Under the pieces are notes generated by a model. It made no database searches. It was not told the DNA's origin and worked only from the letters and a program-made list of their open reading frames with translations. A program made the translations under genes and the position numbers. Of a stretch of DNA of 64,000 nucleotides, positions 5,694 to 21,176 are shown in pieces; the first letter of the stretch is position 1, and every line of letters begins with the position of its first letter. The stretch comes from Actinomycetota bacterium. GTDB lineage: Bacteria; Actinomycetota; Acidimicrobiia; Spongiisociales; UBA11373. Where the stretch lies: NCBI GenBank assembly GCA_020444505.1, contig JAHLKU010000005.1:1-64000 (forward strand), given 5' to 3'.

Positions 5694-5783
5694 CGGCGCG
5701 TGGCGGCCGGCGTGGGGCCCGCGCCATCCTCAAGTTCCCGGATCGCGGGACCGATGAACTGCCAAGGCATCCCAGGAGACGCC

Positions 5784-6149
5784 ATGCGATACCACTGGAT
5801 GCGGCAGGGGTCCGCCCTCGCCATCGGGGTCCTGATCCTGGCCGGCATCGCCGCCGTGATGAGCATCAATGCCCGCGCCGCCGGACTGGACACCGCCGGC
5901 AGCGCTGCGACGGGCATGACGATCTTCGACTTCGAGTGCGCCTCCTGCCACGGATACGCCGCCGAGGGCACCGACGCCGCGCCGGCCCTGGTGGGTGATG
6001 GCGCGCCCGCCGACGTCCTCAGCACGGAGGACATCGGCTGCAGGGTCGCCGAGGGGTTCGGTGCCATGCCGGCCGCGACCCTGTCCGACCGCGACCTCGC
6101 CGACGTGGCCGCCTACCTGCGCGAGATCCAGGCGTTCGGCGGCATCTGA
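5784..6149 (+). CDS. Small membrane-anchored or secreted c-type cytochrome
   Basis: N-terminal signal/TM, CASCHG heme motif, class-I cytochrome c-like C-terminus (DLADVAAYLREIQ). Confidence 0.8.
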   Translation: MRYHWMRQGSALAIGVLILAGIAAVMSINARAAGLDTAGSAATGMTIFDFECASCHGYAAEGTDAAPALVGDGAPADVLSTEDIGCRVAEGFGAMPAATLSDRDLADVAAYLREIQAFGGI

Positions 6150-6153
6150 GCCG

Positions 6154-7467
6154 TCAACCGGCGATCCGGGCAGCGATCTGCCGCACCTCGGCGGCCGCCG
6201 CGTCGAGGTCGATGGTGGTGAGCGCCCCGTTCTCGACCACCCGGCGCCCGCCCACCCAGACGTCGGTGACGTCGCGCGCCGACCCCGCCCAGACCAGGTG
6301 GCCCAGCACCTCCGCCGGGTCCTCCAGCGGCCCGTACTCGGGCCGATCGAGCGAGAACCGGACCACATCGGCCCTGCGGCCGGGTTCGAGCGCGCCCAGG
6401 TCGTCCCGCCCCAGGGCGGCCGCCGCTTCCGAGGTGACCATCCTGAGGGCGTCCTCCACCCCCAGGGCCTGGGCGTCCCCGTCCCGCAGGCGGGCGTAGA
6501 GCAACGCCAGCCGCGCCTCGGAGAGCACGTCGAGGTCGTCGTTGGAGGCGGGGCCGTCGGTGGACACCGACACGTTCACTCCCGCCTCCCGCATCGCCCG
6601 CACCGGGGCGATGCCGGACGCCAGTTTGCCGTTCGACCCGGGGCAGTGGGCGACGCCCACCCCGTGCCGCCCGAACAACGCCATGTCGTCCGGCGTCAGC
6701 CACACCCCGTGGGCCGCGATGACCCGGGCCTCCAGCAACCCGAGCGCCTCCAGGTGGGCGGGGACCGTCATCCCGGTGCGCTCCTCGACCGGAGCTCCCT
6801 CGGAGCGGGTCTCCGCCACGTGGATGTGCACCGCCATGCCGTGGGCGAGCGCAGCGTCCCGCACGGCCGCGAGCGCCTCGTCCCCGACCGTGTAGGCCGA
6901 GTGCGGGCCCAGCGTGAACTCCACCATCGGGTCGCCCGCATGCCGCTCGGACAGCGCGACCGCCTCGGTTATCTGCCCGGCCGGCGAGCCGAAACGCTCC
7001 GGGCCGCTGATGACGGCGGCCCCCACGATGGCCCGGATCCCGGCGCGGGCGGCGCCGGCGGCGATCTGCTCCGGGAAGAAGTACATCTCGTTGGTGGTGG
7101 TGACACCGTTGAGCAGCATCTCCGCGGACCCCAGCGCCATCCCGGCGGCGACGTCGGCGGGGGAGAGGCGCGCCTCCCTCGGCCAGATCGCCTCCCTCAG
7201 CCAGCGATCGAGGGGAAGGCCCTCCCCGGTGCCCCGCAGCACCGTCATCGACGTGTGGGCGTGGCCGTTCAGGAGGCCCGGCAGCAGCAACCCGCCCATC
7301 TGCAGCACCGCTGCGCCCGGCCTGGGCGGCGGGGCGCCGCCCAGCGGCCCCACCCCGGCCACCAACCCGTCCTCGACGTCCACGTACCCGGGGGCGTGCA
7401 CCGAGCACGCGGCATCCATCGGCGCGACGGCGTCGGCGACCAGGCGCAGGGGCGGCGGCACGGTCAC
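6154..7467 (-). CDS. Amidohydrolase, MTA/SAH deaminase-like (TRZ/ATZ family)
   Basis: NGHAHTSMTVLRG, HIHVAETRSE, AAHGVWLTPDD, STDGPASNDDLD metal-ligand motifs; GTG start in 4-bp overlap with upstream CDS. Confidence 0.85.
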   Translation of the reverse strand: MTVPPPLRLVADAVAPMDAACSVHAPGYVDVEDGLVAGVGPLGGAPPPRPGAAVLQMGGLLLPGLLNGHAHTSMTVLRGTGEGLPLDRWLREAIWPREARLSPADVAAGMALGSAEMLLNGVTTTNEMYFFPEQIAAGAARAGIRAIVGAAVISGPERFGSPAGQITEAVALSERHAGDPMVEFTLGPHSAYTVGDEALAAVRDAALAHGMAVHIHVAETRSEGAPVEERTGMTVPAHLEALGLLEARVIAAHGVWLTPDDMALFGRHGVGVAHCPGSNGKLASGIAPVRAMREAGVNVSVSTDGPASNDDLDVLSEARLALLYARLRDGDAQALGVEDALRMVTSEAAAALGRDDLGALEPGRRADVVRFSLDRPEYGPLEDPAEVLGHLVWAGSARDVTDVWVGGRRVVENGALTTIDLDAAAAEVRQIAARIAG

Positions 7468-8834
7468 GATGCGGCCTCCAACCGGTAGACGGCGCCGGTG
7501 TCGGACGCCACCAGCAGCAACTCGCCCGCCCCGTCGAGCCCGAACGAGGCCACCGAGCCCAGTTCGCCGAGCGCTGCCGTCCAGTCCTGCGGCTGGGTGA
7601 CGTTCTCCCCGTCGAACACGAACGAGCGCACCCACCCCGCGCACCAGTCGGCATAGAAGTAGTGGCCGTCCAGTTGCGGGATGGCGGCCCCCCGGTAGAC
7701 GTACCCCCCGGTGACGGCGCACTGGTCGCCCTCGTGCGGGTACTCGAGGATCGGCCGGATCACGTCGGTGCGGCTGCCGCAGGCGGCGTCGAAGTAGCAG
7801 GTGGAGCCCTCCATGAGCGGCCAGCCGAAGTTGGCGCCGCCGTCGGCGAGCGCCACCGTGTCGATCTCCTCCCAGTTCTCCTCGCCCACGTCACCCACGT
7901 AGAGGCGCCCGCCGGCGGCGTCGATCGAGAACCGCCACGGGTTCCGCAGCCCGTAGGCCCAGATCTCCCCGAGGCCGTCGGTGGTCGTGAACGGGTTGCC
8001 GGGGGGGACGGCGTAGGGGTCGCCGCCGTCGACGTCGATCCGCAGGATGCTGCCCTGCAGCGTGTCGAGGCTCTGCGGGTTCACGGCGGCGTCGGTGCCG
8101 TCGCCGAGGCCGATGTACAGGTAGCCGTCGGGGCCGAACGTGAGCATCCCGCCCCGATGGCGGAAGCCCACCTGGTCCACCTCCAGGATCACCTTGCCCG
8201 ACGCCGGGTCCGCCACGTTCGGATCGGCGGAGACGGCGTACTCGGCGATCACCGAATCGGTGTCGAGGTCGGTGTAGTGGACGAAGAACCGGCCGTTGGC
8301 GGCGTAGTCGGGATGGAAGGCGAGGCCGAGCATGCCCAGTTCCACCCCGCTGGCGCTGTCGATGAGGTCGGTGAGGTCCAGGAAGGGATCGCCGCGAACC
8401 GACCCGCCGGGCTCCACCACCGCGACCACCCCGGCGCGCTCCACCACGAACACCCGGTCGTCCCCGGCGGGGGACGCGGCGTACACGGGGAAGGAGAACC
8501 CGTCGGCCACCACCGCAGCGCGCAGCGCCAGGTCGGCGGTGGCCGGCGCGGTGGTGGCGGAGGCGTCCCCGGTGGTCCCGGTGGTCTCCGAACCGGATGC
8601 GAGGGTCGTCGCTCCGCCGGTGGTGACCGTGGACGCGGCGGCATCCGACGTCGACGTCCCTGGAGCGCCCGTGGTCGTGGGAGCAGCGGCGCCGTCCCCG
8701 CCGCCGAAGGCCAGGTAGGCGGCCAGCGCCGCCACCGCCACCAGGATCACGAGGGAGAACGGCCGGTTGGCGCGCGTGAACAGCAGCGCCGGGAAGGCGG
8801 GCTGGCTCGGCGGCCGGGGAGGACGGACGGTCAT
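7464..8834 (-). CDS. PQQ-dependent sugar (glucose/sorbosone) dehydrogenase-like protein, membrane anchored
   Basis: N-terminal TM and T/S-rich linker; LGLAFHPDYAANGRFFVHYTD, GDGTDAAVNPQSLDTLQGSILRID, WAYGLRNPWRFSID family signatures. Confidence 0.85.
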   Translation of the reverse strand: MTVRPPRPPSQPAFPALLFTRANRPFSLVILVAVAALAAYLAFGGGDGAAAPTTTGAPGTSTSDAAASTVTTGGATTLASGSETTGTTGDASATTAPATADLALRAAVVADGFSFPVYAASPAGDDRVFVVERAGVVAVVEPGGSVRGDPFLDLTDLIDSASGVELGMLGLAFHPDYAANGRFFVHYTDLDTDSVIAEYAVSADPNVADPASGKVILEVDQVGFRHRGGMLTFGPDGYLYIGLGDGTDAAVNPQSLDTLQGSILRIDVDGGDPYAVPPGNPFTTTDGLGEIWAYGLRNPWRFSIDAAGGRLYVGDVGEENWEEIDTVALADGGANFGWPLMEGSTCYFDAACGSRTDVIRPILEYPHEGDQCAVTGGYVYRGAAIPQLDGHYFYADWCAGWVRSFVFDGENVTQPQDWTAALGELGSVASFGLDGAGELLLVASDTGAVYRLEAAS

Positions 8835-9043: not shown

Positions 9044-11197
9044 ATGAACGACCGATCCAGGCTCTGGACGATCGGAGCGCTGCTCGTCGCTTTCGCACTG
9101 GTCGTCGCCGCGTGCAGCGGGGACGACGCCGGGGACACGACCACGACCGCGGCCCAGGTGACCACCACCACGGCCGCCACCACGACCACCGAACCGACGG
9201 TGGCGGAGCCGGCGGTCGAGATCCCGTTCCTGGCGAAGTGGGAAGCATCGGCGCACGCCGATTCCGAAGCCGAAGCATTCCGACATTGGGACGAGGACGA
9301 CCCCGCGGTCGTCCCCGAATCGTGTGCCAAGTGCCACGTCGGCACCGGGTTCCAGGACTTCGTGGGTGCCGACGGCACCGCCGCCGGGGTCGTGGACAAC
9401 CCCCACGATCCCGATACGACCATCACCTGCACGACCTGCCACAACGACGCCACCCTGGCGCTCGACAGCGTGACGATGCCCTCCGGCGTCGTGCTCACGG
9501 GCCTCGGCTCCGAAGCCCGCTGCATGACCTGCCACCAGGGCCGCGCCTCCAAGGTCTCGGTCGACGAGGCCATCACTGCGGCGGGCGTGGGTGACGACGA
9601 GGTCAGCGAGGACCTCGGGTTCATCAACATCCACTACTTCGCCGCGGCCGCCACCAAGTACGGCACCGAGGCGCAGGGCGGGTACGAGTACGACGGCCAG
9701 AGTTACGACGCCTACTTCAGCCATGTGCCCGGGTACGAGACGTGCGCCGACTGCCACGACTCCCACAGCCTGGAACTGAAGTTCGAGGAGTGCGCGACGT
9801 GCCACGTCGGCGCCACCGACATCGACGCCGTCCGGGACATCCGGATGCCCGGCTCGCTGGTGGACTACGACGGCGACGGGGATGCCTCCGAGGGCATCTA
9901 CTACGAGATCCAGGGTGCCTCCGACACGCTGTACGCCGCCATGCAGGCGTACACCACGGAGATCCTGGGCACCGGGATCGTGTACGACGCCCATGCCTAT
10001 CCGTACTTCTTCGCCGATCTCAACGGCGACGGGGAGGCCAACGAGGACGAGGCGAACTTCGGCAACCAGTACCCGGCGTGGACGCCGCGCCTGGTCCGTG
10101 CCGCCTACAACTACCAGGTCGCGCTGAAGGATCCGGGCGGCTTCGCCCACGGCGGGAAGTACCTGCTGCAGCTCCTCAGCGACTCCACCGCCGACCTCAA
10201 CTCGGTGCTGGCGAGCCCGGTCGTCGTCGAAGCGGCGCGCCGCATCGACCACGGCCACTTCGCAGGCAGCGAAGAAGCGTTCCGGCACTGGGACGAGGAC
10301 GGGGCCGTGCCGGCCACCTGCTCCAAGTGCCACAGCGCCGAAGGGCTGCCCCTCTTCCTGGCCGAAGGGGTGTCCATCGGCCAGGACCCGTCCAACGGGC
10401 TGGCCTGCGGCACCTGCCACGCCGACTTCAGCACCTGGGATCGCTACGAGGCCGGTGCGGTGACGTTCCCGAGCGGGGCGTCGGTGGACAGCGGCAGCAA
10501 CGACATGAACCTGTGCATGAACTGCCACCAGGGCCGCGAGTCGGGCGCCAGCCTGGCCGCAGCCATCGGTGACGCAGGCACCGACGAGATCGTCGAGGGC
10601 CTGTCGTTCATCAACGTGCACTACTTCCCGGCCGGGGCCACGATCTTCGGGTCGGAGGTCGGCGGCGGGTTCGAGTACGCCGGCAAGGCCTACGCCGGCC
10701 GGTTCGCTCACGTCGAGGCGTTCGACACCTGCGTCGAGTGCCACAACGCCCACGAGCTCGAGGTCCGCACCGAGAGCTGCGCCGGGTGCCACGGCACCGA
10801 AGACGTGGCCGCCATCCGCATGTCGGACACCGACTTCGACGGCGACGGCGACACCGACGAGGGCCTGGCCGGAGAGGTCGAGACGTACCGCGCGATGCTC
10901 TACGACATCATGCAGGCGTACGCCGAGGCCAACGGCACGCCGATCGTGTACGACGCCGCGTCCTACCCGTACTTCTTCGCCGATCTCAATGGCGACGGGG
11001 AGGCGACGCCGGACGAGGCCAACTACGGCAACCGGTTCGCCTCGTGGACGCCCAACCTGCTCCAGGCTGCGTACAACTACCAGTACGCCACCAAGGATCC
11101 GGGGGCGTTCGCGCACAACGGCACGTACGTGCTGCAGTTGCTGTACGACTCGATCGAGTCCCTGGGAGGCGACCTCACCGGCGCCACCAGGCCGTAG
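9044..11197 (+). CDS. Decaheme c-type cytochrome lipoprotein
   Basis: Lipobox VVAACSGDD; ten CXXCH motifs; SD gggaggag before ATG. Confidence 0.9.
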   Translation: MNDRSRLWTIGALLVAFALVVAACSGDDAGDTTTTAAQVTTTTAATTTTEPTVAEPAVEIPFLAKWEASAHADSEAEAFRHWDEDDPAVVPESCAKCHVGTGFQDFVGADGTAAGVVDNPHDPDTTITCTTCHNDATLALDSVTMPSGVVLTGLGSEARCMTCHQGRASKVSVDEAITAAGVGDDEVSEDLGFINIHYFAAAATKYGTEAQGGYEYDGQSYDAYFSHVPGYETCADCHDSHSLELKFEECATCHVGATDIDAVRDIRMPGSLVDYDGDGDASEGIYYEIQGASDTLYAAMQAYTTEILGTGIVYDAHAYPYFFADLNGDGEANEDEANFGNQYPAWTPRLVRAAYNYQVALKDPGGFAHGGKYLLQLLSDSTADLNSVLASPVVVEAARRIDHGHFAGSEEAFRHWDEDGAVPATCSKCHSAEGLPLFLAEGVSIGQDPSNGLACGTCHADFSTWDRYEAGAVTFPSGASVDSGSNDMNLCMNCHQGRESGASLAAAIGDAGTDEIVEGLSFINVHYFPAGATIFGSEVGGGFEYAGKAYAGRFAHVEAFDTCVECHNAHELEVRTESCAGCHGTEDVAAIRMSDTDFDGDGDTDEGLAGEVETYRAMLYDIMQAYAEANGTPIVYDAASYPYFFADLNGDGEATPDEANYGNRFASWTPNLLQAAYNYQYATKDPGAFAHNGTYVLQLLYDSIESLGGDLTGATRP

Positions 11198-11220
11198 CCG
11201 CAGTCCTCTCGCAAGGAGGG

Positions 11221-11251
11221 GGAAGGGCCCGGGGTCATCCCGGGCCCTTCC
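11221..11251 (+). terminator. Hairpin downstream of the decaheme cytochrome gene
   Basis: ggaagggcccggg-gtcat-cccgggcccttcc, perfect 13-bp stem followed by ttgtg. Confidence 0.7.
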
Positions 11252-11719
11252 TTGTGCCCCGGCCGGGGAGGAGCCGGGCGATCGACCCGGGCGGGGACGC
11301 AGGCCGGCGGCGGAATGGCGGCGCGGCCGCACCTACCGCGGCTCCCTTCCGGGTACCCCGGCACCCACACCCGACGGCCCGGGGGTCTGGCGGGGCGGGG
11401 CACCCGGACGTGCGGACGGCGCCCCCGGCGCCCGGTTCCCGCCCAGGCAGCAGGGACCCCGGGTCGGGCGGGGGCAGCCGGTCGTGGAGCCTTCCCGCCA
11501 CCCCCAGGTGCCCCGCCGTCGATCACGACGGGAAGGATCAGCGTGGAGAGGTGCAGGTGGCCGTGATGGAGGGCGGCGCCGCCTCGAAGGCCAGCAGGGC
11601 CTCTCCGTGGACGGCGTCGACGACCTGGCCGTCCGGGCCGGACGGCGAAGGCGCGCCGCGTCCGTGCCATGCCTCGACGCTGCCCGTCCGGGGCCCCTCC
11701 TCCGGAGCGGCGGGGAGAG

Positions 11720-11751
11720 CCACAGGCCTCCATGAGCGCCCCTCAGCGGCC
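11720..11751. repeat. Imperfect direct repeat copy A
   Basis: ccacaggcctccatgagcgcccctcagcggcc; near-copy at 11955-11987. Confidence 0.6.
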
Positions 11752-11954
11752 CCGTGAGGCCTCCACCGCCCGGCCCGGGGACCGGGAGCGCGCGGCCGTG
11801 CGAGCGCCGCGGAGGGGCGTAGACGCGTCGCCCCGATCGCGCCTCGGGGCCTGCGGGGGGATGGCCTCCCTCGGGTGTGCAGCCGGGGGAGCGGGCACGC
11901 ATCCGGCTCCGGACCCAGCCCGTCGCCGGGGCCATCGGGGCAGCATCCCTGCCG

Positions 11955-11987
11955 CCACAGGCCCTCCACGAGCGCCCCTCAGCGGCC
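11955..11987. repeat. Imperfect direct repeat copy B
   Basis: ccacaggccctccacgagcgcccctcagcggcc; near-copy of 11720-11751. Confidence 0.6.
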
Positions 11988-12162
11988 TCTCACGGCGTCC
12001 CGGGGCCGGCCCGGCGGTAGGAGTGCCGCGACGGCGCGGCCGGCCGTCCCCGGTGCTGCAGGCGGGCGGCGCCGGGTGGCCCGGGCGCGGCCGGACGCCA
12101 CCGCCGGGCCCGAGACCGTCCCCGGGCGGGGTACCCCGGCGACGATCCGATGAAGGCACGCA

Positions 12163-12196
12163 CGAGGCCCCGGGCGGAGGGGCGCCCGGGGCCTCG
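12163..12196 (-). terminator. Hairpin downstream of the NapC-like cytochrome gene
   Basis: cgaggccccgggcg-gagggg-cgcccggggcctcg, perfect 14-bp stem. Confidence 0.7.
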
Positions 12197-12219
12197 CGAT
12201 CTCCCTGTGCCGCTCGGGG

Positions 12220-13797
12220 TCAGTACCCCTGCGCCGGGTTGTGGCACTGCGTGCACCGGATCCGGTCCCACACCCCGGCGATGTCCACCGGGTGCTCGAA
12301 CTCGAGGCCGTTCAGATCGGTCTCCAGAGAGGTCACATCGTCCGACGGCCCCTGCGCCACGATGGAATGGCAGGTGTCGCACGCGTTGGCGATCGTCGTC
12401 CCCTCCGGGGAGACCAGGTCGTCGTTGTGGCACCGGAAACACCCGTCGTTGGTGAAGTGGCTCAGGTTGTTGACCCGCACCCGGTAGTCCGTCTCCATCT
12501 CGGGGAAGAAGTTCCCGGCGTAGATGTCCTGCAGGGTGGCGGCGGCCTCGTCGATCTGCGCGCGCAGGGCCTCGATGTCGTCGGGGTACTCGGCGGCGTA
12601 GAACTCCGAGAGCCCCCCGGGGATCGCCGCGAGCGCCTCGTCGGTGGTCTCGTACCGTGCGTTGAGCAGGTCCAGGCCCACCTTGCGGATGTAGGGCAGG
12701 TCGGCATCGATGGTGCCGCGGGAGATCTCCAGGTTGATGGCGGTCGCCGGCGGCTGGAACTTGTGGCTGGGACGGTTGTGGCAGTCGATGCAGTCGAACG
12801 TCCGCACCTCGTACCCCTCGCTGTCCGGGCCGATGTCGGACTCCGGGTCGTCGTAGACGGTCACGTTGCCGTCCAGATCGGTGGCCCGCACCCAGGGGAT
12901 CTCCTGCCGCTGCACATCCGCCGCCACGTACTCGATGGTGTTGGCCGTCACCATGTGCCAGTGGATGCCCTCCAGGTGGCCGGTGCGGGGGTTCCCGCCG
13001 CCCACGTTCACCAGCAGGGTGATGGTCCAGGGGGAGTTGGCCTCGTCGGTGCGGAAGTACGAGATGTTGGTCAGCGTCTGGCCGTAGAACTGCTCGGGCC
13101 AGTGGCAGTGCTCGCACGTCTCCTGTGCCGGCCGGAGCGCCGTCACCGGGGTGGGGATGGGCCGCTCGAACGAGTTGGTGAAGGTCTTCCACACCTGCCG
13201 GAGGCCGTCCAGCTTGGACTTCACCCAGACCGAGCGCCCGGGGCCGATGTGGCACTCGACGCAGGGGACCCGGGCGTGGGCCGACGCCAGGTACGTGGTG
13301 TTCTGGGGGCCCATCACCTCGTGACAGGCCGTGCCGCAGAAGGACACGGATTCCGTGGCCTCGTACGCCCGGATGCCGCTGTAGACGACCAGGACCAGCA
13401 GGACGGCCATGCTGCCGAGGAAGAGCCACAGGTTGCGCATGTAGCGGGGATTCGAGGGCTCGATGCGCAGCATGAACCGGATGCGCTCACCGCGCTTGCG
13501 CGCCTGGCGGGCCACACGGATCGCGCCGATGGCGGTCAGCGCCGCGCCGACGGTGATGACGAACGGGATGCCGATCCAGGTGACGATGGCCCGGTACGGG
13601 TTGTCGGCGCCGCCCAGGAGATCGATCCCCACCATCACGACGAACGCCAGGATGCCGGCGCCCACCAGGGCTCCACCGATGGCCGTCAGGGGATAGGTGA
13701 ACAGGTTCCTGGCGACCCGTTCGGGAGGCGCTGCCGTCCCACCTCGTTCGGGCTCTCCGCCTTCGGCCTTCCCGGGATCGTCGGTGCGATCGCTCAT
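12220..13797 (-). CDS. NapC/NirT-like membrane-anchored multiheme cytochrome c
   Basis: N-terminal TM segments; six CXXCH motifs plus a CX3CH (SFCGTACHEVMGPQNT), followed by ARVPCVECHIGPG. Confidence 0.85.
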   Translation of the reverse strand: MSDRTDDPGKAEGGEPERGGTAAPPERVARNLFTYPLTAIGGALVGAGILAFVVMVGIDLLGGADNPYRAIVTWIGIPFVITVGAALTAIGAIRVARQARKRGERIRFMLRIEPSNPRYMRNLWLFLGSMAVLLVLVVYSGIRAYEATESVSFCGTACHEVMGPQNTTYLASAHARVPCVECHIGPGRSVWVKSKLDGLRQVWKTFTNSFERPIPTPVTALRPAQETCEHCHWPEQFYGQTLTNISYFRTDEANSPWTITLLVNVGGGNPRTGHLEGIHWHMVTANTIEYVAADVQRQEIPWVRATDLDGNVTVYDDPESDIGPDSEGYEVRTFDCIDCHNRPSHKFQPPATAINLEISRGTIDADLPYIRKVGLDLLNARYETTDEALAAIPGGLSEFYAAEYPDDIEALRAQIDEAAATLQDIYAGNFFPEMETDYRVRVNNLSHFTNDGCFRCHNDDLVSPEGTTIANACDTCHSIVAQGPSDDVTSLETDLNGLEFEHPVDIAGVWDRIRCTQCHNPAQGY

Positions 13798-13820
13798 GGT
13801 GGGGTCCCCTCCTCCCTGGT

Positions 13821-13838
13821 CGTAAGGGGGACCTTACG
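13821..13838. promoter_or_regulatory. Inverted repeat cgtaagg-ggga-ccttacg upstream of the NapC-like gene
   Basis: Perfect 7-bp arms, between site 2 and the start codon. Confidence 0.4.
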
Positions 13839-13859
13839 AACACGGGGCGGCGGGTCACC

Positions 13860-13875
13860 AGGGACCTTCGACCCT
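13860..13875 (+). promoter_or_regulatory. DosR-box-like palindrome AGGGACCTTCGACCCT (site 2)
   Basis: 63 nt upstream of the NapC-like start codon (13797, minus strand). Confidence 0.5.
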
Positions 13876-13951
13876 TCCGGGTGGGACGCGCGGCCGGAGC
13901 GCACGGGCGCGTCGAGCCGCCGGAGGAACCGGGAACCCGCCGCGCTGCCGC

Positions 13952-15382
13952 CTAGCCGCCGGCCTCGGGGGCACCGTTGGCGATCCACTCCCGCAACACC
14001 GCGAGCGCGGCGTCGTCCAGTTGGCCGGGGTGGCCGCCGGCGGCCTGCACGGCGTACAGCGGGGATGCCTCGGGGTCGCCCGCGGTCACCGCCGCCAGAG
14101 CGCTCTCGTAGGTGGTCAGATCCAACCCGGCGGCGGGCGAGCCCCCGCCGTGGCACGCGGCGCAGGACGCCAGCAGGCCCGAGACCGGGCTCTGCCACCC
14201 GGGAGGCCCGCCGGCCGACCCCTCACCCGCGGTGGCGGGTGCGCCGGCCGTGATCCACGCCCGGATGCTGGCGATCTCCTCGTCGGTGAGGACCACGGCG
14301 TGGTCGCCGCCCTCCATCACCTGCACCAGCGCCGACCCGTCGGGGTCGCCGGCCACGACCGCGCCCAACGTGCCCTCGTACGTGGCCAGGTTCAGGCCGC
14401 CGAGCGCCATGGCCTTGCCGTGGCAATCGGTGCACCGGTTGTTGCGGAACACGGCCTGCAGGCCGTCCTCCCAGCCGACGGCCGGGATGGTGGTCGTGGT
14501 GGCCGCGACGGGGGTGGTCGTGGTGGGCGCCACCAGGGTGCCGGTGGTCTCGACCGGGGCGAACACCTCCACCTGCTCGGGGGGATCGATGGTGGCGATG
14601 GCCGTGTCCTCGAAGGTCACGAACACCCAGATGCCGGCCATCATGATCAGTGCGGCGCCCGCCGCGGCAGGGATGTAGATGCGGGTGCGGCGGCTGGCGG
14701 CCTTGCCCGTGGGCGGGGTGAACGCCTGGCCGGCCTCGATCTGCTCCAGTTCGAGCCCGTGCTCGTGCTCCATGTCCTTCCGGCTCATGGTGCCGGTGAA
14801 CATCGAAGTGTTGAAGCTGCGGACGTGCACGTGGTACATGTGCCACACGATCACGGCCAGCACGGCGAGGAGGGCCTCCCCGCTGTGGAACACCTTGGCG
14901 GCGGGGATGAACTCGCCGGGCAGCACCTTGGCGGTGGCGATGGGGTTCCAGAGCAGGAACCCGCTCACCACCATCACCAGCGTGCCCCACACCAGGGCGT
15001 AGTACTCGAGCTTCTCCTCCCAGGTGAACCGGCCCTGCTTGGGAGGCTTCGCCTCTCTGCCGGCCAGGTAGCGGACCGAGTGCTGGGCGGCCCTGAGGTC
15101 GGCCATCGAGGGCAGCATCTCCCGGGGGCGGCGCTGCACGTACTTGCGGTACCCGATGGCACCGATGTGGTACACGACGGCGACCATGAGGATGGTGGCG
15201 AACACCCGGTGGACGACGCGCACCGATTCGATGCCGCCGAAGAGGTCGATGATGCGCCGAGAGAGCCAGGCGCCGGCATAGCGCTGGGGGATGCCGGTGA
15301 CGGCCAGCATCGTGAACGACACCAGCTGGGCGACGTGCTCGAGGCGGTCGGAGATCGAGAACCGGCGGTAGCGCTCAGCCAT
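13952..15382 (-). CDS. Cytochrome b561/formate dehydrogenase gamma-like membrane protein fused to two C-terminal cytochrome c domains
   Basis: Four-helix b-type region with His residues (DRLEHVAQLVSF, RVVHRVFAT, WHMYHVHVRSF); C-terminal CTDCHG and CAACHG. Confidence 0.85.
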   Translation of the reverse strand: MAERYRRFSISDRLEHVAQLVSFTMLAVTGIPQRYAGAWLSRRIIDLFGGIESVRVVHRVFATILMVAVVYHIGAIGYRKYVQRRPREMLPSMADLRAAQHSVRYLAGREAKPPKQGRFTWEEKLEYYALVWGTLVMVVSGFLLWNPIATAKVLPGEFIPAAKVFHSGEALLAVLAVIVWHMYHVHVRSFNTSMFTGTMSRKDMEHEHGLELEQIEAGQAFTPPTGKAASRRTRIYIPAAAGAALIMMAGIWVFVTFEDTAIATIDPPEQVEVFAPVETTGTLVAPTTTTPVAATTTTIPAVGWEDGLQAVFRNNRCTDCHGKAMALGGLNLATYEGTLGAVVAGDPDGSALVQVMEGGDHAVVLTDEEIASIRAWITAGAPATAGEGSAGGPPGWQSPVSGLLASCAACHGGGSPAAGLDLTTYESALAAVTAGDPEASPLYAVQAAGGHPGQLDDAALAVLREWIANGAPEAGG

Positions 15383-16511
15383 TGGCGGCCCCCTTCCTGG
15401 TGCGGCGGTCCCTGAAGGTGAGCAGCACCACGTACACCCCCATCGCCCCGATCGTGATGGGGATGATCAGGCGGTAGAACCACTGGGCCAGCCACACCAG
15501 CGTGGCCTGCCCCGGCGCCGGGGTGTAGTGCCCCAGCCACGAGGCCGGGAAGTTGTCGGTCGCATCGGGATGGCAGCGCTGGCAGGTCCGCAGGATGTTG
15601 TCCTTGAACGTCTGGCTGTTCGGGTTGTCGGCCGACTGGATGCTGTGGACGCCGTGGCAGTCGATGCAGACCGGCTTGTTCGTCTCCTGTCCGGGCGCCA
15701 GGGCCTCGTACAGCACCACCGTGGTGCCGTGGAAATCGGAGATGTAGGTGTCGAACGTGTCGGCGCGGATGCCGTACTTGCTCATGAGGTCGGGGTCGCT
15801 GTGGCAGTTCGCACAGAGCTGCGGCGAGAACAGGTGGAACTCGGGCAGCGACGGGCCCTCCACGTCGTGCACGCCGTGGCAGTCGGTGCAGGTGGGGACG
15901 TCCCTGACGCCCGACAGCAGCGCCGCCCCGTGCACCGAGTCCTCGTAGACCTCGTAGATCTCGTAGTGGCAGTTCCTGCACGTCTCGGCCACCTCGGGAG
16001 TGTGGGCGACCGGCTTGCTGACCTCGTGCGAGCCGTGGCAGTCGGTGCAGACCGCGGCGTCCAGGTTGCCTCCGGCCAGAGCGGCGGAGTGGACGTTGTC
16101 CATGGTCGCCGTCGCCTCCGAGGTGTGGCAGCCGGCGCAGGCCTGGTTCAGGTCCACCACCCAGGTCCGGACGTCGGGGGCGGGGAAGGGATCGTGGGGG
16201 AAGCCGGAGATGTCGGTGTGGCACAGCACGCAGGGGATGTCCACGGGGCCGTGCACCGAGGCCTCGTGGGCCTCGACGTCGAACGTCAGCGGGAGCACCT
16301 CGCCGGAGGGAAGGGTGGTCTGGAACCCGGGGTTGCCGTGGCACGACAGGCAGGCCTCGTTGCCGGTCGCCTGGTCGGCCGGCTCGGCCTCGTCGTCCTG
16401 GGCGGCGGCGGTGCCTGCCGTGAGGGCCAGCACGGCCACGACGGCGCCGGCCAGGCCCAGGAGAGCGGCGAGGTGCCGCCCCCTCGCGGTTCCGGTGCTC
16501 TCAACGTTCAC
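15375..16511 (-). CDS. Nonaheme c-type cytochrome with signal peptide and C-terminal TM anchor
   Basis: Nine CXXCH motifs; GTG start VNVESTGTARGR followed by signal peptide; C-terminal TM helix; overlaps downstream cytochrome b gene. Confidence 0.85.
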   Translation of the reverse strand: MNVESTGTARGRHLAALLGLAGAVVAVLALTAGTAAAQDDEAEPADQATGNEACLSCHGNPGFQTTLPSGEVLPLTFDVEAHEASVHGPVDIPCVLCHTDISGFPHDPFPAPDVRTWVVDLNQACAGCHTSEATATMDNVHSAALAGGNLDAAVCTDCHGSHEVSKPVAHTPEVAETCRNCHYEIYEVYEDSVHGAALLSGVRDVPTCTDCHGVHDVEGPSLPEFHLFSPQLCANCHSDPDLMSKYGIRADTFDTYISDFHGTTVVLYEALAPGQETNKPVCIDCHGVHSIQSADNPNSQTFKDNILRTCQRCHPDATDNFPASWLGHYTPAPGQATLVWLAQWFYRLIIPITIGAMGVYVVLLTFRDRRTRKGAANG

Positions 16512-16567
16512 ACAGGCCTCCCCACGGGCGTCGCAGCCATTCAAGTCGGCACGGGCCGCCGCCGCGT

Positions 16568-16626: not shown

Positions 16627-17208
16627 TCAGCCGGCGACGAGCTCGTCGAGCACCGGCATCAGGTCGCCCGCGACGATGGCGCCGTATTCCTTGTGCACGA
16701 TGACACCGTCGGCGTCGACCACGTAGGTCTCGGGCACCCCGTAGACGCCGAACTCCACCACGGCGCGCGAGCCGGGGTCCTGCAGGTAGAGGTACCCGTC
16801 CCCCCACCCGTACTGGTCCAGGAACCCGGTGATGGCCGCGGTGGTGTCCTGGTAGACGATGCCGACGAACTGCACCCCCCGGTCACCGTAGGCGTCGGAG
16901 AGTGCCGTCAGCTCGGCGTGCTCGGCGCGGCAGGGGATGCAGTAGGAGGCGAAGAAGTTGATCACCAGCACCTCGCCCCGCAGGTCGGCGAGCGCCACGG
17001 TTCCCGAGCCGTCGAGGAGCGGCAGTTCCAGGTCGGCCATCTGCTCGCCGGCCAGCGGGATGTTGCGGGGCTCGCGGGGATCGTACGACCCGGGATCGGT
17101 GCGCAGGAACATCACCCACGCCGTCGCGATCACCAGGAGGCCGGCACCCCCGACGATCACCCAGAAGCCGACGCCGCGCCGGCGGGTCTCTGTCGGCTGA
17201 TCGGTCAC
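16627..17208 (-). CDS. TlpA/ResA/CcmG-like thiol-disulfide oxidoreductase
   Basis: N-terminal TM, INFFASYCIPCRAEHAEL CxxC thioredoxin motif, adjacency to ccmHF. Confidence 0.85.
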   Translation of the reverse strand: MTDQPTETRRRGVGFWVIVGGAGLLVIATAWVMFLRTDPGSYDPREPRNIPLAGEQMADLELPLLDGSGTVALADLRGEVLVINFFASYCIPCRAEHAELTALSDAYGDRGVQFVGIVYQDTTAAITGFLDQYGWGDGYLYLQDPGSRAVVEFGVYGVPETYVVDADGVIVHKEYGAIVAGDLMPVLDELVAG

Positions 17209-18005
17209 GCGCCACCTCCTCGGGCCTCGTCCAGCATCCGCTCCACCTCGGGACGGAGCTCGTCGGGGAGGTCCGGGTATCCCAGCACCTCCTCGAACAG
17301 CGGCACCGCCGCCTCACCGTCCTCCATGCCGTACAGCAGAACGATGGCCTTCCACAGGACGGCCTCGCCGTACACCGGGTCGAGGGCGATCGCCGTGTCC
17401 AGGAACGACAGGGCCGTCTCGGCGTCGTTGAGCGCCGCCCACGCCATCCAGCCGATCCGGGCGTTGGCCACGGCCGCCTCGGCGTCGGTCGGATCGCTCG
17501 CGGTGACCGTGGAGTAGTGGTTCATGGCGCTCATGAAGTCGCCGCTCTCGAAGTACATGTCGGCCAGCGCCAGCCGCATCGCGTTGTTGTCCGGCTGGGC
17601 GGCGACCGCGGCCTCCATCTCGGCCAGCGAGCCGGAGGCGGCGGGGGCGGCCGTCGTCGTGGCGGTCGGCCCGCCGTCGCCGGAGGTGGCGAGGACCACG
17701 ATGACGACGGTGGCCAGCACCATCGCCGCGATCACCACGGCCACGGTCGGCCACGGGCTCTTGGCCGGCGCCTTGGCGGCGGCGCCCTTCCCGGGTCCCT
17801 TGGGCTTCGCCTTCGCGACCGGCTTGGGAAGGGCGGCCAGGGCGGAGCGGGCCTCCTCGAGGTCACGGCGGTACCGGGCCTCGAGTTCGCTGGCCGCGGC
17901 CTCGTCCAGTTCGCCGTCGTCCACCTGCGCCTGCAGGTCGGCCAGATCCTGCTGGGCGATGCGGATGCGCTGCTCCAGCGCGCTGCGGCGGATCTCGTCG
18001 CTCAT
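17205..18005 (-). CDS. CcmI-like TPR protein
   Basis: TM plus TPR-like repeats, LEARYRRDLEEARSALAAL N-terminal coiled region, position between ccmH and tlpA genes. Confidence 0.65.
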   Translation of the reverse strand: MSDEIRRSALEQRIRIAQQDLADLQAQVDDGELDEAAASELEARYRRDLEEARSALAALPKPVAKAKPKGPGKGAAAKAPAKSPWPTVAVVIAAMVLATVVIVVLATSGDGGPTATTTAAPAASGSLAEMEAAVAAQPDNNAMRLALADMYFESGDFMSAMNHYSTVTASDPTDAEAAVANARIGWMAWAALNDAETALSFLDTAIALDPVYGEAVLWKAIVLLYGMEDGEAAVPLFEEVLGYPDLPDELRPEVERMLDEARGGGA

Positions 18006-18400
18006 GCGGGCTCCTTGGCGCGTCGTTGCCGGGTCCAGATGAGGTAGGCGCCTCCGACGAGAGCGGCGGCAGGCGCCAGCCACAGCAGCAGCGTGCGCAC
18101 CTCGAAGCGCGGGTCGAGCCGGATGCCGTCGCCGTACCGCTCCGTGAAGAAGTCGAGGATCTGATCGTCGGTCTCCCCGGCCTCCACCTTCTCGGCGACG
18201 ATGTCCATCATGGCCTCAGCCGTCTCCGACGGGGACTCCACGATGGCCTCGCCCTGGCAGACCGGGCACTTGATCCGCTCGCCGAGTGCCAGGACGCGGT
18301 CGGTCTCGGACGGCTCCCCGGCGACGAAGCCCCAGCCGACCACTCCGGCGAGCCCGAGGGTCACGACCCAGGCGAGGATCCTTCGGATGCGCTCAGGCAC
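18002..18400 (-). CDS. ccmH: Cytochrome c maturation protein CcmH
   Basis: ERIKCPVCQGEAIVES motif and FFTERYGDGIRLDP; C-terminal TM. Confidence 0.85.
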   Translation of the reverse strand: MPERIRRILAWVVTLGLAGVVGWGFVAGEPSETDRVLALGERIKCPVCQGEAIVESPSETAEAMMDIVAEKVEAGETDDQILDFFTERYGDGIRLDPRFEVRTLLLWLAPAAALVGGAYLIWTRQRRAKEPA

Positions 18401-20438
18401 GGGCGGCCTCCTTGTCCTCGGCGCGGGCCCTGCGGGGCGGCCGTGCCAGCCATCCCCACAACCCGCCGGCGGCGGAGAGGAACCCGCCGGCCCAGACCAG
18501 CCAGATGAACGGGAACCAGTGCATCTCGAGCCGCACCGAGTCCTCCGTAGGGGTCCCCGCGAGCGCCAGGTACAGGTCGCCTCTCAACCCGGTGTCCACC
18601 GCGGGCGAGGGGATCTGCCGCCCCTGGATGCGGTACTCGTTGAGCCGCGGTGCCAGCGTGCTGAGGAGGTCGTCGCCCCTGCGGATCTCGATGTTGGTGC
18701 CGACGGCGATCCGGTTTGGCTGCTCGTCCACGAAGGACCCGACATAGGTGACCTCGAAGCCGGCGAAGTCCACCGGTTGGTCGAGGGGAAGGTCCACCTC
18801 GGTGTGTTGGGCCTGGTTCGAGGAGATGGCGATCCCGAGCGCCAGGACGGCCAGGCCGACGTGGGCGATCATCCCGCCCCAGTAGGCCGAGTCCTTCCGC
18901 AGCGCCCTCCACGCCTCGCCGGCGGCGTTCGAGCCCCGCTTGGCGGCCGCCCGCCGGGCCGTCACCCACAGGTGCCTGGCCGACGTCCCGATGATGAAGG
19001 TGGAGAGCAGCACGGCGCCGAGCACCCACCCGTTGGGCCGCCACAGCACCGCCCACGCGGCGGCGACGGCGAGCGCGACCCGCATCGGGGTGCGGATGCG
19101 TTCCCAGACCACGCGGCCCTGGGCCTTGCGGAACGGCATCACCTGGCCGATGCCCACCGCGAGCAGCAAGGCGTAGGAGATGGGCAGGGCCATCCGGTCG
19201 AAGAACGGCCGTCCAACGCCCACCTGATCGCCGGTGGCCCACTCCACGAACATCGGGTAGAGGGTGCCGACCAGCACCACGAAGGCGAACACGCCGAGCA
19301 GCAGGTTGTTCAGCATGAACATGCCCTCGCGGCTCACCAGCGAGTCGATGCGCGGCGCCGAGCCGATGCGCTGGATGCGGGCGGCGTACACGCCGTACCC
19401 GCCCACCAGGATCAGCACCAGGAACCACAGCAGCATGGGCCCGATCTCGGACTGCGTGAAGGCATGGACCGAGTTGATGATGCCGGAGCGGGTGAGGAAG
19501 GTGCCCAGGATGGTGAGGGCGAACGTCGCCACCACCAGGGCGTAGCTCCACGCCTGCAGCACGCCCCGGCGCATCTGCAGCGCCGCCGTGTGCACGAACA
19601 TGGTGGCCACCAGCCAGGGCATGAAGGAGGCGTTCTCCACCGGGTCCCATGCCCAGTAGCCGCCCCACCCGAGCACCTCGTACGACCACAGCCCGCCGAG
19701 GACGATGCCGGCGGTGAGGAAGATCCATGCCACCCGGGTCCAGGTGCGGGTCACCCGCAGCCAGCGGTCGCCGGCCTCGCCGATCAGCAGCGACGCCATG
19801 GCGAACGAGAACGGCGCCGCCAGCCCGACGTAGCCCACGTAGAGCATCGGCGGGTGCACGGCCATCAGCGGGTGGTTCTGCAGCAGGGGATTGGGGCCGA
19901 GGCCCTGCGCCGGCGCCGACGCTGCGGCGAACGGCTGCCAGGACCCGGAGGCGCACCCGAAGCCGAACGACCCGGCCTCGGTGCACACCTGGAAGGGGTT
20001 CGACGAGGTGGCCATGAGGAGGAAGAAGAACGCCGAGATCACACCCATGACGGCCAGCGCCCCGGCCCACAAGGGATCGGCGTCGTCCAGGCGGCGCATG
20101 CCCCACCAGATGAAGAAGGTGAACACGGCCAGCACGAGCCCCCAGAGCACCAGGCTCCCTTCCAGGGCGGCCCAGGCGCTCGCCATCTTGTAGAGGAACG
20201 GTGTGGTGGTCGCCGAGTTGTTGGCGATGTACTCCACCGAGAAGTCGTTGGCGAGGAGGCCGATCTCGAGGGCGCCCATGGCCACGACGGCGCCGGCGAT
20301 CAGGCCCACGGCGGGGATCGCAAGGCTCGAGGCGGTGGCCTGCCCGGGGCGCCGGAGGGCCACGAAGCCGCGCACCGCCAGGGCGACGGCCGACAGCAGC
20401 GCCACCCAGGTGCCCAGGAACCCCAGGAACGAGGTCAT
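18393..20438 (-). CDS. ccmF: Cytochrome c maturation/heme lyase subunit CcmF
   Basis: Many TM helices, WWD-type motif GYWAWDPVENASFMPW, HPPMLYVGYVG, NNSATTTPFLYKMASAWAALEGSLVLW. Confidence 0.9.
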   Translation of the reverse strand: MTSFLGFLGTWVALLSAVALAVRGFVALRRPGQATASSLAIPAVGLIAGAVVAMGALEIGLLANDFSVEYIANNSATTTPFLYKMASAWAALEGSLVLWGLVLAVFTFFIWWGMRRLDDADPLWAGALAVMGVISAFFFLLMATSSNPFQVCTEAGSFGFGCASGSWQPFAAASAPAQGLGPNPLLQNHPLMAVHPPMLYVGYVGLAAPFSFAMASLLIGEAGDRWLRVTRTWTRVAWIFLTAGIVLGGLWSYEVLGWGGYWAWDPVENASFMPWLVATMFVHTAALQMRRGVLQAWSYALVVATFALTILGTFLTRSGIINSVHAFTQSEIGPMLLWFLVLILVGGYGVYAARIQRIGSAPRIDSLVSREGMFMLNNLLLGVFAFVVLVGTLYPMFVEWATGDQVGVGRPFFDRMALPISYALLLAVGIGQVMPFRKAQGRVVWERIRTPMRVALAVAAAWAVLWRPNGWVLGAVLLSTFIIGTSARHLWVTARRAAAKRGSNAAGEAWRALRKDSAYWGGMIAHVGLAVLALGIAISSNQAQHTEVDLPLDQPVDFAGFEVTYVGSFVDEQPNRIAVGTNIEIRRGDDLLSTLAPRLNEYRIQGRQIPSPAVDTGLRGDLYLALAGTPTEDSVRLEMHWFPFIWLVWAGGFLSAAGGLWGWLARPPRRARAEDKEAARA

Positions 20439-20479
20439 GACGCCGAGCCCGGGCCCGGGGTGTGCACGAGCGAGCGCAT
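20435..20479 (-). CDS. Putative 14-aa leader peptide MRSLVHTPGPGSAS coupled to ccmF
   Basis: ATG preceded by gaggaggga-tcac SD; TGA overlaps ccmF ATG (ATGA); ccmF itself lacks an obvious SD. Confidence 0.5.
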   Translation of the reverse strand: MRSLVHTPGPGSAS

Positions 20480-20553
20480 GTGATCCCTCCTCTGGCGCCG
20501 GGTGAGCCCCGGACGCGTGCCCGCACGCTAGCGCGGCCCCGCCGGTTCTCTTC

Positions 20554-20569
20554 CGGGTCGGAAGGCCCA
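20554..20569 (-). promoter_or_regulatory. DosR-box-like palindrome TGGGCCTTCCGACCCG (site 4)
   Basis: cgggtcggaaggccca; 75 nt upstream of the leader ORF. Confidence 0.45.
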
Positions 20570-20636
20570 TCCGGCCCGGGCCTCCCGGCGGCCGGAGTGC
20601 CCCACCTCGACGCACCGGACACGCGCCGCGGCGCAG

Positions 20637-20642
20637 TACCCT
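20637..20642 (+). promoter_or_regulatory. -10-like TACCCT, 9 nt before ATG at 20652
   Basis: tacccTgcgacggtcATG. Confidence 0.5.
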
Positions 20643-20651
20643 GCGACGGTC

Positions 20652-21176
20652 ATGGACCTCTTCCTCTCCGCGCTCCTCATCTTCGGGCTTCGCCTCGTCG
20701 ACGTCTCCCTCGGCACCATCCGCATCGTCCTGCTGACCAGGGGCGACGCCTGGAAGGCCGGCCTCGTCGGCTTCGTCGAATCCCTCACCTGGGTGGTCGC
20801 CGTCAGCCAGGTGCTCGGCAACCTCAACGACCCGGTCCGCATGCTCGGCTTCGCAGCGGGATTCGGCACCGGCACGTTCGTCGGCGTCATGATCGAACGG
20901 TGGCTGGCGATGGGCACCTACGTGGTGCGCATCGTGGCGCCGGTGTCGTCGCCGCAGGCGGCCGACGCGCTGCGCGCAGCGGGGTACCCGGTGACCGTGT
21001 TCAACGGTGAGGGCCGTGACGGCGAAGTCCGCCTGGCCATGAGCGTCGTGCGGCGCCGTCAGACCAAGGACGTCCTCCGGATCGTCTACGAGGCCAACCC
21101 CGCTGCCTTCGTGACCTTCGAGCACGCCCGCTTGCCGTCTGCGAGCCTCCGGGCCGCCACCTCGGTCAGGAAGTAG
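20652..21176 (+). CDS. DUF2179/DUF5698 (UPF0316-type) membrane protein
   Basis: LRLVDVSLGTIRIVLLTRGDAWKAGLVGFVESLTWVVAVSQVL family signature. Confidence 0.8.
   Translation: MDLFLSALLIFGLRLVDVSLGTIRIVLLTRGDAWKAGLVGFVESLTWVVAVSQVLGNLNDPVRMLGFAAGFGTGTFVGVMIERWLAMGTYVVRIVAPVSSPQAADALRAAGYPVTVFNGEGRDGEVRLAMSVVRRRQTKDVLRIVYEANPAAFVTFEHARLPSASLRAATSVRK

Follow-up and report, generated by a model that had tools for sequence, protein, structure and literature searches.

A duplicated-pentaheme lipoprotein beside ImcH- and CbcL-type genes in an acidimicrobial genome: a candidate monoderm chain for extracellular electron transfer

What do four adjacent genes with 28 predicted c-type hemes do in a Gram-positive-type cell, and where would their electrons go? 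The genes lie within positions 1 to 64,000 of contig JAHLKU010000005.1 (assembly GCA_020444505.1), a 64,000-nucleotide stretch of an actinobacterial genome that we call the window, and an original prediction made from the sequence alone had taken positions 9044 to 16511 for an undescribed, quinone-linked electron conduit. We consider it reasonably probable that this cluster is a monoderm extracellular electron transfer chain, running from menaquinol through an ImcH-type cytochrome and a split CbcL-type oxidoreductase to a lipid-anchored surface cytochrome. The four multiheme genes are as follows:

9044 to 11197, + strand: 10-heme lipoprotein with a signal peptide, a lipobox (Cys24), a Thr-rich linker, and two tandem pentaheme modules of the OcwA/NrfA superfamily; its proposed role is that of terminal cytochrome at the cell surface
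12220 to 13797, - strand: putative ImcH-type 7-heme inner-membrane quinol dehydrogenase with three N-terminal transmembrane helices, one CGTACH, and six CXXCH motifs
13952 to 15382, - strand: cytochrome b561/FdnI-type membrane subunit whose C-terminal extracytoplasmic extension carries two PSCyt1 monoheme domains; putative b half of a split CbcL-type oxidoreductase
15375 to 16544, - strand: 9-heme cytochrome with a C-terminal transmembrane anchor (start codon uncertain); putative c half of the same oxidoreductase

The four open reading frames (ORFs) contain 10, 7, 2, and 9 heme motifs, 27 of them CXXCH and one CX3CH, in agreement with the count of about 28 that had been predicted. The composition also came out as foreseen: a lipoprotein with 10 CXXCH, a NapC/NirT-like protein with six hemes plus one, a b561-type subunit with two cytochrome c domains, and a membrane-anchored cytochrome with 9 CXXCH. 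The lipobox of the lipoprotein is VAAC at Cys24, and the additional motif of the 7-heme protein is CGTACH. Genome-wide, the CXXCH DNA pattern occurs at background frequency (140 copies in 2.54 Mb versus 149 for the reversed control), which amounts to about 0.4 expected copies per 7 kb, compared with the 27 observed in the cluster, all of them in frame. Since the cluster ORFs also have a G+C content at third codon positions of 0.92 to 0.94, and both the heme motifs and the synteny are kept in other genera, this density is not due to chance.

We then looked into the membrane components. The 7-heme protein has 525 amino acids (aa), with hydropathy peaks at aa 32 to 50, 69 to 87, and 119 to 137 that correspond to three N-terminal transmembrane helices. 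Its CGTACH motif (aa 154) sits beside the third helix and is followed by CXXCH motifs at aa 179, 228, 336, 453, 473, and 515, a CX3CH plus six CX2CH pattern that is conserved in 15 homologs. The Pfam NapC/NirT model (PF03264) matched aa 126 to 211 (E = 1.4e-8) and the NCBIfam NrfH model matched aa 129 to 232, so that both similarities are limited to the part formed by the third helix and the first hemes. ImcH homologs have been described in the same terms, with three transmembrane helices, an atypical CX3CH, six CX2CH, and NapC/NirT similarity confined to the third helix and the first hemes (PMC6295460). Judged by its sequence, the 7-heme protein has this published ImcH architecture, the assignment being made by that description. 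It thus shares with the family of Geobacter sulfurreducens ImcH the three N-terminal helices, the membrane-side CX3CH, and the six CX2CH, and imcH elsewhere likewise adjoins multiheme genes. Unlike in the family at large, the host here is a monoderm actinobacterium, and the protein belongs to a clade shared with Zixiibacteriota and Calditrichota.

Homologs of the 7-heme protein with 36 to 62% identity were found in Acidimicrobiia, Zixiibacteriota, Calditrichota, Ignavibacteria, Omnitrophota, KSB1, Acidobacteria, Gemmatimonadetes, Verrucomicrobia, and others, and several of these phyla are also listed for ImcH in PMC6295460. In the ImcH tree, the sequences from Acidimicrobiia, Zixiibacteriota, and Calditrichota form one clade (support, 100), within which those from Zixiibacteriota and Calditrichota (L072 to L078) are nested among the acidimicrobial ones (support, 85). 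This nesting suggests that imcH has been exchanged across phyla, between Acidimicrobiia and Zixiibacteriota/Calditrichota. The survey of 2018 reported one actinobacterial ImcH homolog, with a single transmembrane helix, and no CbcL-family member in Actinobacteria (PMC6295460).

The 9-heme and cytochrome b genes overlap by 8 bp, and profiles of both parts detected 41 ORFs in the neighborhoods of imcH homologs from other phyla in which a 9-heme-like part is followed by a cytochrome b-like part in a single polypeptide. Six His residues of the cytochrome b membrane domain (positions 16, 58, 72, 166, 181, and 208) are kept in 8/8 orthologs and recur in the three aligned ORFs of the fused type. On account of the fused homologs, the conserved His residues, and the overlapping genes, we take the two proteins for a CbcL-type quinone oxidoreductase in split form, with a b subunit that would have gained PSCyt1 domains. 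The pair resembles the CbcL/MtoC/MtrH family in combining a multiheme c part with an FdnI/HydC-like cytochrome b, and in having fused homologs near imcH homologs. It differs in being encoded by two genes and in carrying extra PSCyt1 domains on the cytochrome b, one to three among the relatives and two in the window; because c and b domains do not share one polypeptide here, we do not file the pair as CbcL proper.

The decaheme gene is preceded by a ribosome-binding-like sequence, GGGAGGAG, immediately 5' of the ATG. The lipobox Cys is invariant in 11 orthologs, and this lipobox and the signal peptide are the only signals of surface location in the protein sequence. The two modules (aa ∼62 to 395 and ∼396 to 717) contain five CXXCH motifs each and are 49% identical to one another. 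In addition to the five motif His, each module has five His that are invariant over 16 module sequences, and four of these stay invariant when relatives from other phyla are included (32 members). Their number would suffice to give all hemes bis-His ligation, although in the alignment with OcwA one of them falls near an open-heme site.

A PDB search with the single sequence of the full 10-heme protein gave no useful match. When a combined family profile of the module was used, OcwA (6i5b) came first (E = 1.2e-15), in an alignment that ran almost end to end and took in the heme-free C-terminal helices; next came the multiheme cytochrome 6qvm, octaheme nitrite reductase, and NrfA. Structure modeling pointed the same way: as the full-length model was poor (pLDDT 57, with no significant fold match), one module was modeled alone with a deeper alignment (pLDDT 84.6, pTM 0.86), and Foldseek again placed OcwA first in the PDB (probability 0.96, E = 0.049, TM-score 0.45), an E value weak on its own and only supportive. 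The sequence thus matches the OcwA/NrfA superfamily, with characterized members only distantly related, and close homology to a characterized reductase, the finding that could have overturned the original prediction, did not emerge. Nor is the protein of the OmcA/MtrC kind, a kinship that had been raised for it: family models for OmcA/MtrC, DmsE, and HmcA matched far below cutoff only, and a match between the module profile and MtrA (6r2q) was judged to reflect heme-motif similarity.

In OcwA, the surface terminal reductase of Thermincola potens, hemes 5 to 9 form an NrfA-like pentaheme core in which heme 5 is open (PMC6703420). The decaheme protein resembles OcwA in its pentaheme module with C-terminal helices, in belonging to a Gram-positive-type cell, and in its proposed surface role. 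However, OcwA combines a c554-like tetraheme part with one pentaheme (9 hemes), whereas the window protein is predicted to be a lipoprotein with two tandem pentahemes (10 hemes) and no tetraheme part. By its motif and domain layout, it is a new architecture, a duplicated pentaheme, within a known superfamily. Relatives of the module in other phyla are either larger fusions or proteins of 4 to 6 hemes, many of which seem to have a lipobox; profile-profile comparison linked the module to these relatives at 99.4%.

With such relatives, the decaheme protein might instead reduce a soluble substrate (nitrite, hydroxylamine, or similar), being fed by the ImcH-type quinol dehydrogenase as NrfH feeds NrfA. 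We regard this as unlikely. Its modules do match NrfA and octaheme nitrite reductase besides OcwA, the N terminus of the ImcH-type protein matches NrfH, and the invariant His136 of the module aligns near the His-His pair above the open heme 5 of OcwA, a protein that slowly reduces nitrite (PMC6703420). Yet profile kinship is where the likeness to NrfA and octaheme nitrite reductase lies: unlike NrfA, the decaheme protein contains no CXXCK heme, every motif being CXXCH, the window module has no match to PF02335 (NrfA), the invariant His suffice for bis-His ligation of all hemes of each module, the pentaheme is duplicated, and the lipid anchor and a conserved CbcL-type partner are not expected of an NrfHA-like enzyme. 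Consistent with the earlier view that the cluster lacks a recognizable terminal reductase, NrfA was not found in the genome, and its molybdopterin proteins are limited to NuoG.

We next consider how the surface and membrane parts are distributed. In an order sample of 59 genomes (the window's own genome plus relatives up to the order), the decaheme gene was present in 12, the relatives being 60 to 76% identical, and all 12 carry imcH; we give this association as 12/12 only, the imcH search not being certain to cover all 59 genomes. The two genes are on different contigs in three genomes (G037, G016, and G036). Partial matches with E above 1e-10 in the decaheme search of this sample were discarded as signal-peptide or Thr-linker similarity. 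Several relatives have the decaheme gene adjacent to and codirectional with the other multiheme genes. All genes run one way in G040 (L037/L069), in the order ccmF, the TPR gene, tlpA, the decaheme gene, the 9-heme gene, the cytochrome b gene, and imcH, and the decaheme gene lies directly upstream of the 9-heme/cytochrome b pair in G030, G023, and G044. Variants also occur: in G001 and G006 (L031, 7888 to 10107; L032, 4452 to 6590), the interval between imcH and the decaheme gene encodes a cytochrome b6f/bc-type subunit to which about six cytochrome c domains are fused, with a Rieske-like gene also in this interval in G006. In G036 (L040, 12078 to 16428), other multiheme genes, with 6, 11, and 10 CXXCH, come after the decaheme gene where the 9-heme, cytochrome b, and imcH genes would otherwise be.

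Outside Acidimicrobiia, no full-length decaheme ortholog was found among 397 genomes of the phylum and 36 imcH-bearing genomes, a search in which only two candidates were scored per genome in the latter set, so that weak ones may be missed. The tandem double module was seen in Acidimicrobiia only, among the genomes searched. The sole matches of the full decaheme profile in other phyla (L159 and L160) are in two of the Zixiibacteriota/Calditrichota genomes with nested ImcH. Single-module relatives occur in 22/40 imcH-bearing genomes of other phyla, some of them near imcH, and neighborhoods of 9-heme, cytochrome b, and imcH genes recur in many phyla. The label "undescribed" thus holds for the decaheme part and not for the other three of the four genes, which fall in described quinone-oxidoreductase families. 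In other words, judged from the sequences, the membrane parts would be known kinds in a lineage new for them relative to the 2018 survey, while the surface part would be a new architecture. In the literature that we searched, the cluster is not described for Acidimicrobiia, although this does not prove that no description exists.

The cell type agrees with a monoderm chain. The window contig carries the actinobacterial markers Pup ligase and proteasomal ATPase, named relatives are Acidimicrobiia (L069), and no Omp85 was detected in the genome (97.6% complete) by a search that was positive in diderm controls. MtrCAB-type porin-cytochrome conduits serve an analogous purpose, but here the cluster contains no porin gene and the genome no Omp85. 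Together with the ImcH- and CbcL-type architectures, this supports the predicted quinone-linked conduit of a Gram-positive-type cell. A MenJ-like protein, scoring below the cutoff of that model, agrees with menaquinone as the quinone.

We propose that the ImcH-type cytochrome, the split CbcL-type pair of cytochrome b and 9-heme protein, or both oxidize menaquinol and deliver its electrons on the outer side of the membrane. The lipid-anchored decaheme protein would take them up outside and, by analogy with OcwA in Thermincola, may pass them to an extracellular acceptor such as a metal oxide, a shuttle, or a partner. We infer the direction of the electrons, the surface exposure, the acceptor, and the working of the units as one chain. 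Geobacter ImcH and CbcL serve acceptors of differing potential (PMC6295460); as in Geobacter, two quinol oxidases of different type would be available, here in one cluster.

Several observations weigh against this proposal. We identified no carrier that would span the cell wall in the way of CwcA in Thermincola. In the window, the decaheme gene lies on the opposite strand from the other three multiheme genes and is convergent with them, so it is not cotranscribed with them, and some relatives have imcH without the decaheme gene. The genome also encodes COX1-type and CcoN-like oxidases, two OTR-family octahemes, and a hydroxylamine oxidoreductase (HAO)-related cytochrome, so that the conduit is one of several electron outlets.

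The convergent gene and the imcH-only relatives would fit two or more separate outlets that merely share the ccm neighborhood, with no electron exchange between the decaheme protein and either of the two membrane units, ImcH-type and CbcL-type. We find this quite improbable, given imcH in every decaheme genome, the position of the decaheme gene directly upstream of the 9-heme/cytochrome b pair in several genera, and the recurrence of single-module relatives near imcH in other phyla. Inward flow from an extracellular donor (Fe(II), a partner cell, or a cathode) through the CbcL-type unit to the quinone pool is equally improbable, with the CbcL-family MtoC and MtrH of Fe(II) oxidizers (PMC6295460) and the terminal oxidases of this genome speaking for it.

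There is also a wider proposition, which we put a little below an even chance: many Acidimicrobiia, monoderms for which this chain is not known, would respire extracellular acceptors via ImcH, a split CbcL, and a new surface cytochrome of duplicated OcwA/NrfA-type pentahemes, the membrane part having been exchanged with the diderm Zixiibacteriota and Calditrichota. Most of what is known about extracellular electron transfer comes from diderm metal reducers and a few Firmicutes. Were a monoderm form with a duplicated OcwA-type terminal cytochrome conserved in Acidimicrobiia, reduction of minerals or electrodes would be expected of a wider range of bacteria from sediments and the subsurface. Such a form would represent a second Gram-positive-type solution, with ImcH/CbcL membrane parts common to diderms and a different surface part, and would support the repeated use of OcwA/NrfA-type pentaheme modules, besides MtrC-type ones, as surface outlets.

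The cluster is flanked by cytochrome c maturation genes, as had been noted, and Pfam confirms the four families:

16627 to 17208, - strand: TlpA/ResA-like thioredoxin for cytochrome c maturation (thioredoxin-like in Pfam)
17205 to 18083, - strand: TPR protein of the ccm cluster (TPR in Pfam; CcmI/CycH-like from its position)
18002 to 18400, - strand: CcmH family cytochrome c biogenesis protein (Pfam)
18393 to 21125, - strand: CcmF heme lyase (Pfam)

Other multiheme proteins encoded elsewhere in the genome are the two OTR-family octahemes, the HAO-related cytochrome, a 19-heme protein, and a 10- to 11-heme protein. The tetrathionate-reductase-family octahemes are at L043 (9095 to 10918) and L044 (7242 to 11197), and one of the two has as its neighbor a fusion of a multiheme protein with a thiosulfate-reductase-type cytochrome b. 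A 10-CXXCH protein without an NCBIfam match and an HAO/HDH-related multiheme cytochrome are found at L149 (3342 to 4457) and L045 (9592 to 10926), respectively. A 19-CXXCH cytochrome with c7-like repeats (L042, 7 to 1812, on G000:C26), near a contig edge and adjoining a pyridine nucleotide-disulfide oxidoreductase gene, could act as a wall-spanning carrier.

On the other side of the decaheme gene, and divergent from it, lies a glucose/sorbosone dehydrogenase (GSDH)-family gene (7464 to 8834, - strand), which adjoins the decaheme gene in G001 too. A monoheme cytochrome c gene (5700 to 6149, + strand) is located nearby, and the GSDH protein with this cytochrome is a possible extracytoplasmic electron donor.
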